A stretch of 33,775 bases of DNA from Acidobacteriota bacterium (GTDB lineage: Bacteria; Acidobacteriota; Aminicenantia; UBA2199), in assembly GCA_025456175.1 (NCBI GenBank), contig JALOLC010000027.1:1-33775 (forward strand), in the 5' to 3' direction. How positions within the stretch are numbered: position 1 is the first letter of the stretch; each line of letters begins with the position of its first letter. Positions 11,646 to 22,897 of this stretch are shown piece by piece. A program made the position numbers and the translations under genes. The notes under the pieces were generated by a model, which searched no databases, had not been told where the DNA came from, and saw nothing but the letters and a program-made list of their open reading frames with translations.

Positions 11646-12461
11646 CTATCCTCCTATCTGCCAGTTGCCGCGATTGGCGCAGACGCTGCCGCGGGCGGGC
11701 TTGGCGGCCGCGGCCTGCATCAGGCTGGCGCGGATGTCGCTGAAGTCCACCGCGATCTCGCGGTCGGAAAACAGGCAGGGCTTGAGCTTGCCGTCCGCGG
11801 TGAGGCGCAGGCGGTTGCATACGCGGCAGGAAAGGGGCCTCTCGGCATCCAGCGCGCCCGGCGATGGTTGGGATGTCCTCAGTTCGTGCAGGCTGTAATG
11901 ATGGATGCGCTGCAGCCGCAGCCCGTTGCCACGGCAGAATTCCCTCAGTGCTTCGACCTCGCCGTCGTTGAAGCCGGGGATCAATACCATGTTGATCTTG
12001 GTCTGGGCGAAGCCGGCCGCGGTCGCGGCGCGGATGCCCGCCAGCACCTGGCCGATATCGCCGCCGCGGGTGACCTGCCGGTATTTCTCCGCGTCCAGGG
12101 TGTCCAGCGAGATGTTGAGGCGGTCCAGCCCCGCCCGCTTGAGCTCCCCGGCCAGTGGCGCCAGCAGCGTGCCGTTGCTGGTCAGGCTCACCTCGCCGAT
12201 CCCCGGCACGGCTTTGAGCTCGCGGACCAGGAAGGTGATGTTCAGGCGCAGCAGCGGCTCGCCGCCGGTCAGGCGCACCTTGCCTATCCCCAGCCCTACC
12301 GCCGCGGCGACCACGCGGGTGATCTGTTCGTAGGAGAGGATGTCGGCATGGTCCTTCAGGCGGATGCCCTCCGCCGGCATGCAGTAGGTGCAGCGCAGAT
12401 TGCAGCGGTCGGTCACCGAGACGCGCAGGTAGTCGATCTGGCGGTTAAAGGAGTCGAACAT
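11646..12461 (-). CDS. moaA: GTP 3',8-cyclase MoaA (short form)
   Basis: This radical SAM enzyme starts Moco synthesis from GTP. The N-terminal cluster is C20-x3-C24-x2-C27 (DRCNLRCTYC), followed by LTGGEPLL and SNGTLL. The second cluster is CRVCNRLRLTADGKLKPCLF, and the C-terminus ends in QIGG, the double-Gly tail that reaches the active site. At 271 residues it is about 50 shorter than usual (about 320-330). The shortfall lies between NMVLIPGFNDGEVEALREF and the second cluster, where the usual IEYMP-type segment and the helix before the second cluster are absent or replaced. All key residues remain, so the gene looks intact. I took the ATG at 12461, which overlaps the moeA stop by 17 bases; the codon before it is TTG. 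Confidence 0.9.
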   Translation of the reverse strand: MFDSFNRQIDYLRVSVTDRCNLRCTYCMPAEGIRLKDHADILSYEQITRVVAAAVGLGIGKVRLTGGEPLLRLNITFLVRELKAVPGIGEVSLTSNGTLLAPLAGELKRAGLDRLNISLDTLDAEKYRQVTRGGDIGQVLAGIRAATAAGFAQTKINMVLIPGFNDGEVEALREFCRGNGLRLQRIHHYSLHELRTSQPSPGALDAERPLSCRVCNRLRLTADGKLKPCLFSDREIAVDFSDIRASLMQAAAAKPARGSVCANRGNWQIGG

Positions 12462-13692
12462 CAACGCGGCTCCCGGCGGCGATCTCTTTCTGGCCCGTCG
12501 GCACCTGCAGCAGGCCGTTGGCCCGGGCCAGGGCGTGCAGGTGCGCCGAGCCGTGGTAGGAAACGAGTTCCGCCTTGCCGTGGCGCAGGATGACCGGGAT
12601 AAAAACCGTCCGCTCGCCGTTGCCGCGGCGGAAGGGGGAGGTCAGGGTCGCCTGCTGCCGGAGCGGCAGATCGTTGTTGCCCATCATCCGCTGCAGCAGG
12701 GGCTTGATCAAAACCTCGAAGATCACGAAGGTCGAGACGGGATTGCCGGGCAGGCCGAATGCGCACGGACCGGCAGCGGCCGTCCCCTCGTGGGACTGGC
12801 CGGCTGGGGCCGTCCCCTCGTGGGACTGGTCGGCCCGGGTGGAGAAAACCGTGGGCATGCCGGGCTGGACGGCGATCTTCTCGAAGTGCGGGGTAAAGCC
12901 CACGCTCCTCATCGCCGCCGGCACGTGGTCGAAATCCCCGGCCGAAACCCCGCCGGAAATGATCAGGATGTCGCATGCCTCCATGGCGGCGTTGATGGCC
13001 TCGGCCGTGGCCTCCGCGTCGTCCGCGACCCGCCCCAGCAGCACCGGCACCGCTCCCGCTTCCCGCGCCTGGGCCGAGAGCGAATGGGAGTTGCTATCGT
13101 AGATCCGTCCCGGCGCGAGCGGCGTGCCGGGATCGGCCAGCTCCGAGCCGGTGGTGATGATGCCCACCCGGGGGCGTCGGGCCACCGTGGCCTCGGCGCT
13201 GCCCAGCGAGGCCAGCAGCGCGACCTGGGCGGGCCGCAGGCGCACGCCCGCGGCTAGGACCAGCTTGCCCGCCGGCAGGTCCTCGCCCTGGCAACGGACG
13301 TTCACGTGGAGGTCCTGGGCCACGATCCTCATGAGGCCGTTCTCCTCGGCCGTGCATTCGCGCCGGACCACCCGGTCGGCGCCGGAAGGCATCATGGCCC
13401 CGGTCATGATCTTCGCGCATTGGCCAGGCGTAATAACGACCCGCGGCGGCGTGCCGGCGGCGATGGTCTCCACGACACGGAAAGCCGGGGAGGTGTCGCC
13501 GGAAATATAGGCGTAGCCGTCCATGGCCGACTTGTTGAATTCGGGGATGTCGCGGGGAGAAAACACGTCTTGGGCCAGGAAGCGGCCGGCAGCTTCCGCC
13601 AGCGGCACCATTTCGGGTGCAGGCGAGACCGGGAAGCTCATGATGGCCTTTTCCGCTTCCTCCAGGCTGATCATGGGTTTGGCCGTTATCAT
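12445..13692 (-). CDS. moeA: molybdopterin molybdenumtransferase MoeA
   Basis: MoeA inserts molybdate into adenylylated molybdopterin. Signatures: SPRDIPEFNKSAMDGYA, KIMTGAMMPSGADRVV, GIITTGSELADPG, ILIISGGVSAGDFD and FGLPGNPVSTF. Just before that last motif sits a roughly 20-residue insertion made of two copies of a QSHEGTAxAG unit, encoded by a 30-bp tandem repeat. The C-terminal domain (about 340-410) is complete. I prefer the ATG at 13692 because a 15-codon leader ORF with a strong Shine-Dalgarno ends there with an ATGA overlap. An ATG at 13707 would add 5 residues but has no ribosome-binding site. It is the first structural gene of the operon moeA-moaA-moaC-MOSC-moaB. Confidence 0.93.
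   Translation of the reverse strand: MITAKPMISLEEAEKAIMSFPVSPAPEMVPLAEAAGRFLAQDVFSPRDIPEFNKSAMDGYAYISGDTSPAFRVVETIAAGTPPRVVITPGQCAKIMTGAMMPSGADRVVRRECTAEENGLMRIVAQDLHVNVRCQGEDLPAGKLVLAAGVRLRPAQVALLASLGSAEATVARRPRVGIITTGSELADPGTPLAPGRIYDSNSHSLSAQAREAGAVPVLLGRVADDAEATAEAINAAMEACDILIISGGVSAGDFDHVPAAMRSVGFTPHFEKIAVQPGMPTVFSTRADQSHEGTAPAGQSHEGTAAAGPCAFGLPGNPVSTFVIFEVLIKPLLQRMMGNNDLPLRQQATLTSPFRRGNGERTVFIPVILRHGKAELVSYHGSAHLHALARANGLLQVPTGQKEIAAGSRVDVRLL
12778..12837. repeat. 30-bp palindromic tandem repeat inside moeA
   Basis: Two units (12778-12807 and 12808-12837) differ at only a few bases. Each contains GTCCC-CTCGT-GGGAC, a 5-bp stem with a 5-base loop, flanked by GGCC on the left and GGCC or GGTC on the right. 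The period of 30 keeps the moeA frame and gives two copies of a ten-residue peptide. This looks like in-frame insertion or expansion of a palindromic element, as known for Rickettsia palindromic elements; the resemblance is in architecture, not sequence. Confidence 0.8.
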
Positions 13693-13736
13693 AAGGTTCT
13701 CGGGCATCTATTGCAGTGAATGCTCTGTGTCTGCAT
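13689..13736 (-). CDS. possible 15-codon leader peptide of moeA
   Basis: AAAGGAGAAACG precedes an ATG that opens a 15-codon frame, MQTQSIHCNRCPRTL, whose TGA overlaps the moeA ATG at 13692 (ATGA). The peptide contains a Cys-x-x-Cys pair. The ribosome-binding site is better than that of either moeA start, so ribosomes probably reach moeA by coupling. It could be a true leader peptide or an accidental frame; conservation would tell. Confidence 0.4.
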   Translation of the reverse strand: MQTQSIHCNRCPRTL

Positions 13737-13893
13737 CGTTTCTCCTTTCCAATCGGGGAGGCTGGGCTGTTTCCGGCCCGGCCCTGGCGGTCCATACGCC
13801 TAGCCCGGTATGGGTTGCAGGCCTATGAACTCGGAGAAGCTGCATCGTAGCAAAAAGCAGGCCGAAAAGCAAGTGCCGACGCCGTTTCCCCAT
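13708..13893 (-). CDS. possible 61-codon small ORF in the moeA leader
   Basis: An ATG at 13893 opens a 61-codon frame starting MGKRRRHLLFGLLFATMQLL, which looks like a basic-then-hydrophobic N-terminus, but the rest is polar with no recognisable domain and only a weak AGG upstream. It ends next to moeA. It is listed as a possibility only and could be chance in GC-rich DNA. Confidence 0.15.
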   Translation of the reverse strand: MGKRRRHLLFGLLFATMQLLRVHRPATHTGLGVWTARAGPETAQPPRLERRNDADTEHSLQ

Positions 13894-22759: not shown

Positions 22760-22888
22760 GAAGAGAAGGGAAGAGAGAGGGAAGAACGAGGGAAGAGAGA
22801 GTGGGAAAAAGCGCTAAAAGTAACTCTGCCAGTGCTTTTTCACTCTGCCTTTCCCTCACTCTTCCCTCTGCCTTCCCTCTCTCCTCCC
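22760..22888. repeat. long purine/pyrimidine inverted repeat
   Basis: The left arm (about 22760-22815) is nearly all purine with repeated GGGAAGAGAGAG units; the right arm (about 22831-22888) is its near-complementary pyrimidine copy. The 15-base loop is 22816-22830. Matching is close next to the loop (AAAAAGCGCT against AGTGCTTTTT) and stays high over more than 50 bases with a few small bulges. On the minus strand it lies between the AAA+ gene stop and the Mut7-C start. It can form a long RNA hairpin (RNase III substrate or terminator) or a cruciform/triplex in DNA. Confidence 0.8.
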
Positions 22889-22897
22889 TTGGAACTG

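Follow-up and report, generated by a model that had tools for sequence, protein, structure and literature searches.

The moeA gene of an Acidobacteriota bacterium contains a 60-bp insert of two tandem 30-bp units, which are probably copies of a dispersed, non-autonomous element of its genus that would be moved in trans and tolerated in frame. The insert lies in a stretch of 33,775 nucleotides, called the window here. Its parts are listed below, where model matches refer to a covariance model of the two-hairpin unit.

12448-13707, minus strand: moeA, the host gene of the insert, 420 aa (Pfam MoeA_N, MoCF_biosynth and MoeA_C; PDB MoeA chains; genus orthologs)
12766-12825, plus strand, the element's orientation (opposite to moeA): 60-bp insert of two 30-bp units, absent in orthologs read across the site
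12766-12795, plus strand: unit 1, an imperfect first hairpin (CGGACCGGCAGCGGCC), then second hairpin GTCCC-CTCGT-GGGAC; model match 12767-12796, E=8.3e-5
12796-12825, plus strand: unit 2, CTGGCCGGCTGGGGCC, then second hairpin; model match 12797-12829, E=1.0e-8
12826-12833, plus strand: CTGGTCGG, presumed host target adjoining the insert; agrees with the flank consensus CTGGNCGG from 32 sites

The unit boundaries in moeA were taken from empty-site comparisons of other copies, and the end points could be shifted by a few bases because both ends look alike. The plus-strand sequence of 12760-12836 is GCGCACGGACCGGCAGCGGCCGTCCCCTCGTGGGACTGGCCGGCTGGGGCCGTCCCCTCGTGGGACTGGTCGGCC, in which the hairpin cores, GTCCCCTCGTGGGAC, occupy 12782-12796 and 12812-12826. 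Tandem Repeats Finder reports a period of 30, 2.2 copies and a 91% match at 12770-12834, in agreement with the original prediction that moeA holds two 30-bp repeat units. The moeA frame stays open across both units and encodes QSHEGTAPAGQSHEGTAAAG directly before CAFGLPGNPVS; thus, the expected 20 or so extra residues ahead of FGLPGNPVS, with the frame kept, are present. Two details of that prediction need revision. The repeat had been placed at 12778-12837, which is rightly in moeA, but its true start is about 12 bp lower, at 12766. It had also been described as a GTCCC/GGGAC hairpin flanked by GGCC. The hairpin stands, but unit 2 is followed on its right by GGTC, and GGCC is one state of an additional, covarying hairpin.

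Conservation of the rest of the protein, together with a Moco riboswitch just upstream, suggests that moeA is a working gene. The riboswitch (Rfam RF01055, 58.2 bits; window 13726-13848, minus strand) immediately precedes moeA, heads a moeA-moaA-moaC-like gene run and is the only Rfam match in the window at gathering score. Four loci carrying the element gave no Rfam match at the element up to E=5. When aligned to solved MoeA chains, the protein loses its match at the insert, which falls between the segments corresponding to QPGxP and GLPGNPVS. An AlphaFold2 model of the single MoeA sequence had a pLDDT of 35 and was set aside. Elsewhere in the window, the 11-bp tandem repeats GAAGAGAGAGG and TTCCCTCTCTC lie close together at 22760-22889 and are approximately complementary in composition.

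A search for MoeA in 41 genomes found it in 34. The insert is missing in all 14 same-genus orthologs read across the site, where an MPTVF or MPTIF segment leads through a short turn into FGLPGNPVS, and the family- and class-level orthologs examined likewise contain none of the insert residues. The closest ortholog has MPTVFAGKAEK-CAFGLPGN where the window has MPTVFSTRADQSHEGTAPAGQSHEGTAAAGP-CAFGLPGN. At the site, the closest relative (G011, 73% identical) reads MPTVFAGKAEKCAFGLPGN, and the empty site of another relative, G002, is CTTGTCGG. Unrelated MoeA orthologs with these residues, which would mark an old loop, were sought and none was found, so the idea of an insertion holds. Most simply, these alignments mean that 60 bp, in two units, entered moeA of the window species after its split from the sequenced relatives.

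The anticipated further copies were found, both in the bacterium's own genome and across the genus, where the same element lies in frame in unrelated genes. Besides moeA, the own genome has the following copies.

L004: in-frame copy in the gene for a VWA protein
L010: in-frame copies, three 36-bp units, in the gene for a beta-lactamase-fold protein
L007: in-frame copy, a weaker match, in the gene for methionyl-tRNA synthetase
L003: intergenic-looking copy

The unit reads CT-GGNCG-n4-CGNCC-GTCCCC-TTG-KGGGA (30 bp) and is formed by two abutting hairpins, the first GGNCG-n4-CGNCC, in which base N covaries, and the second GTCCCC-TTG-KGGGAC. In a variant of 36 bp, the first hairpin is longer. Among 24 units, the covariation score is 0.152, compared with 0.082 for shuffles (0 of 500 reach the observed score) and at most 0.045 for slid partners. 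The signal stems mainly from one pair, which appears as G-C, C-G, A-U, U-A and G-U. In a larger set, 37 of 46 units pair at that position, compared with about 22 calculated from column compositions, although the units in these counts are not all independent events, as some sites are shared by descent. We also considered homogenisation of units within genomes, but similarity between units from the same genome did not significantly exceed that between genomes (a difference as large as the observed one arose in 151 of 2000 label shuffles).

The covariance model was applied, with a threshold of E<=1e-3, to 16 genomes of the genus and 126 others of the class. Eight of the 16 genus genomes have matches, up to about 30 each: 30 in G012, 20 in G005, 6 in G014, 4 each in the own genome, G001 and G011, and 2 each in G013 and G008. 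Outside the genus, one of the 126 class genomes gave a marginal match (G461, E=6e-4), which is about the chance yield of that many genomes and was left out of the count. Judged by this distribution, the 30-bp element is a genus-level family. Two loci, L106 (an RNase P-like region) and L107 (GTCCCAAAATGGGAC), were omitted because they look like other things. The hairpin GTCCCAAAATGGGAC and its variants occur in the genus as pairs or clusters spaced by about 70-150 bp (L107 1500-1661, G001:C56, G006:C334 and G012:C221).

The specific element exceeds chance, whereas the palindrome alone does not. The window has 2 GTCCC-n-GGGAC sites versus 0.66 expected, and at least 2 arise in 8 of 100 shuffles. 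Across the genome, GTCCC-n3-7-GGGAC is less frequent than its reversed control, and plain GTCCC-n-GGGAC counts in the genus reveal no clear excess over control. Therefore, the plain palindrome cannot define the family by itself. The exact sequence GTCCCCTYGTGGGAC, by comparison, occurs 10 times in the 16 genus genomes, versus 0 for the reversed control.

Tandem matches in a Levyibacteriota metagenome-assembled genome (MAG) and a Gallionellaceae MAG were rejected as family members, since only the 15-base core GTCCCACAAGGGGAC is common to them and the flanks differ. The Gallionellaceae MAG (G042; L095, L102 and L109) has 76 GTCCC-n5-GGGAC sites versus 3 for the reversed control, often within GTCCCACAAGGGGACAATGTA. 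One site lies within a trigger-factor-like gene or at its end, and the two Y1 genes of this MAG are not flanked by the repeat, which is a separate REP-like family with the same core. The Levyibacteriota MAG carries a 43-bp tandem array, TACGCTCAAAATTTCATTAAGAGAGGTCGTCCCACAAGGGGAC, that also includes this core (L094 3470-3640).

In approximately 62 of 69 clusters of the element, the surrounding reading frame exceeds 120 codons and passes through the element uninterrupted, and codon use on either side is usually coding-like. The exceptions are L003, L128, L145, L176, L179, L185 and L194. This proportion of about 90% is close to the coding share of a bacterial genome; therefore, the element seems not to avoid genes. 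Pfam recognises 35 of 37 scanned host proteins, which include methionyl-tRNA synthetase, LexA, DapF, DNA polymerase III alpha, ATP synthase gamma (AtpG), HypD, a nickel insertion protein, an RNase R-like protein, PurL, saccharopine dehydrogenase, an OMP decarboxylase-family protein, secretin, a Y-family polymerase (DinB) and XdhC, among others.

The element runs against the gene strand in 41 clusters and with it in 28. In one orientation its frames encode SPKGTG, VPQGD or PTGGR, and in the other RPLGGL, SPWGT or VPLWD. With both orientations and several frames in use, the sites have no shared peptide. Of 31 distinct units, 21 can be read through in all six frames and another 9 in five of them. 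Since the unit length is divisible by three and the majority of copies are free of stop codons, a copy that lands in a gene contributes 10 or 12 residues while the protein remains readable. The absence of stop codons was also considered as a special adaptation, but shuffled units perform nearly as well, and so it mostly reflects base composition.

Gains were measured in codon alignments against orthologs without a copy. DinB of G012 has 10 more residues than in four species, and DnaE of G012 and G005 has four separate 10-residue gains. Gains of 30 bp are present in the genes for the RNase R-like protein (G014 and G013), an FAD-dependent protein (G014), AtpG (G001 and G008) and saccharopine dehydrogenase (G012), while HypD of G014 gained 66 bp, or 36 plus 30. 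A DAO-family gene holds 60 bp in G012, 30 bp in G005 and none in three others; these aligned orthologs show that orthologous arrays vary by whole units. The XdhC comparison is less clean, and its target match is poor.

The host junctions read GCG|CTGGCCGG (RNase R-like), TTC|CTGGCTGA (FAD-dependent) and CGG|CTGGGGGG (DAO-family). At 32 sites the right flank follows C T(25) G(26) G(20) N C(24) G(26) G(20), which resembles the element's left end. As aligned, these sites show that the element is gained as a precise 30-bp unit beside a host CTGGNCGG-like sequence that resembles its own left end. The junction can be placed either 5' or 3' of CT. As read from sequence only, the left end is CT or CA, and C is followed by T in 25 of the 32 right flanks. 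In a multicopper-oxidoreductase-like gene (L253 versus L254), a clean unit in G005 stands opposite an equally long sequence in G012 with the look of a decayed unit, which suggests that old copies remain and drift.

Copies are concentrated in genes related to error-prone replication. In six species (G001, G005, G008, G012, G014 and G015), they are found in lexA, in a Y-family polymerase gene or in a dnaE-type gene. These three genes are adjacent in G001, G008 and G015 and are on two contigs in G012. Of the 19 clusters of G012 with E<1e-3, 5 are in these genes, which span about 5.5 kb of the 2.4 Mb and would be expected to receive about 0.04. The hot spot could result from weak constraint on lexA, dinB and dnaE genes or from a real insertion preference.

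Dispersal by insertion is well supported. We presume that the unit would move in single-stranded form, that its two hairpins would serve for recognition, and that cutting would occur at the CT (or CA) dinucleotides that bound it. The enzyme would be supplied in trans and is probably of the HUH/Y1 kind that processes REPs. The precise ends, fixed length, CT/CA ends and paired hairpins fit Y1/HUH processing of single-stranded DNA. TnpA_REP cuts REPs at CT, and a Marinomonas enzyme cuts at CT or CA (PMC8266576). In moeA, the insert would confer no benefit, and the turn that links the QPGMP and GLPGNPVS segments would tolerate it.

When GTCCCC..GGGAC was sought at 30 Y1 transposase loci of the genus, no element copies flanked the genes, although the MAGs are incomplete (the own genome is 73.5% complete) and a linked transposase could be missing. 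Moreover, copy number does not follow the number of Y1 matches: G007 combines 8 matches with few elements, and G012 has 1 match but the most elements. A Y1 gene of the own genome is bounded by inverted ends of the GGTGTCAGGTCTTACATTATT type (L067, about 1070-2150 and 2800-2920), and a fragment of the bounding sequence lies further downstream; this is a different mobile element.

Because of the findings at Y1 loci, copying by host repair remains a rival. Spread might need no transposase if slippage during replication, or a switch of template, occurred at short stretches of CTGGNCGG-like homology and, aided by the hairpins, both seeded new sites and lengthened arrays. The resemblance of the target to the element's end, the growth of tandem arrays by whole units and the failure to find a linked transposase all favour this account. 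However, precise ends and a constant gained length at unrelated loci are more expected of an enzyme, and several target matches, such as that of XdhC, are poor. We regard slippage or template switching as rather unlikely.

Another explanation is that host genes have repeatedly recruited a selected coding or regulatory module, such as a peptide linker or an RNA or DNA hairpin signal. This might account for a structure that is kept while its bases change, and for recurrence in LexA and DnaE genes of several species. It is made improbable by the two orientations (41 and 28) and differing frames, which leave no common peptide, and by host genes that share no theme beyond one cassette and sites that are mostly restricted to one or a few species. 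Finally, although a GTCCC-n-GGGAC pair is not rare in a window of such composition, it is hardly credible that the insert is an old MoeA loop lost in relatives, combined with a chance palindrome, because none of the 34 genomes with MoeA has the loop and the 30-bp element recurs in other genes.

Beyond movement of a dispersed element in trans, we tentatively suggest a wider reading, which may well prove too strong. The family might represent a novel minimal mobile DNA, a two-hairpin unit of 30 bp that is moved in trans as a single strand into CTGGNCGG-like sites, colonises genes by virtue of its whole-codon length and is concentrated in the lexA-dinB-dnaE error-prone polymerase cassette. The pairs of empty and filled sites, defined unit length, target consensus and covarying structure make both movement and protein tolerance directly testable.

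No earlier description of the 30-bp element was found in openly licensed literature, and known repeats resemble it in part. MITEs likewise are small, non-autonomous and dispersed. However, they measure 70-300 bp and resemble degenerated insertion sequences (PMC3733652), whereas the gains here are 30 or 36 bp, and no terminal inverted repeats joining the unit ends were seen.

GTAG REPs, which are associated with RAYT (TnpA_REP), are likewise hairpin elements of 20-40 bp with CT, sometimes CA, ends. Some reside within genes, including DnaE2 and repair genes, a pattern in other bacteria that was judged unlikely to be fortuitous (PMC3733652). The present family supplies another case of palindromic inserts within error-prone polymerase genes. 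More than half of the intragenic REP inserts described there are dimers or groups, coding for 20-30 residues (PMC3733652). The GTAG tetranucleotide was not found at the hairpin foot of our unit, and no RAYT gene is flanked by copies as in a REPtron. REPs are also predominantly extragenic (PMC3733652), whereas about 90% of sites here are inside genes.

In-frame palindromic repeats were first observed in Rickettsia and later among some REPs, and the Rickettsia tag class has no known transposase (PMC3733652). Rickettsia palindromic elements, RPE-4 and RPE-6 included, are likewise palindromic, dispersed and in frame in unrelated, functional-looking genes. The original prediction had likened the moeA repeat to them. 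The likeness extends to behaviour, as the element is present in frame inside many unrelated open reading frames, but not to membership, because tag and structure differ. RPE-4 and RPE-6 are CGTC repeats, with an unpaired CGTC tag and an 8-9-bp stem beginning with AT (PMC3733652). In contrast, the present unit has two GC-rich hairpins, no unpaired tag (CGTC, TGTC or CCTC) and no AT start; the letters CGTC do occur in it, but within a paired region. Because a CGTC or GTAG tag, a flanked RAYT gene and an extragenic bias are all missing, we place the element outside both families. On these features, it is a variant akin to Rickettsia palindromic elements and intragenic REPs, and a member of neither.
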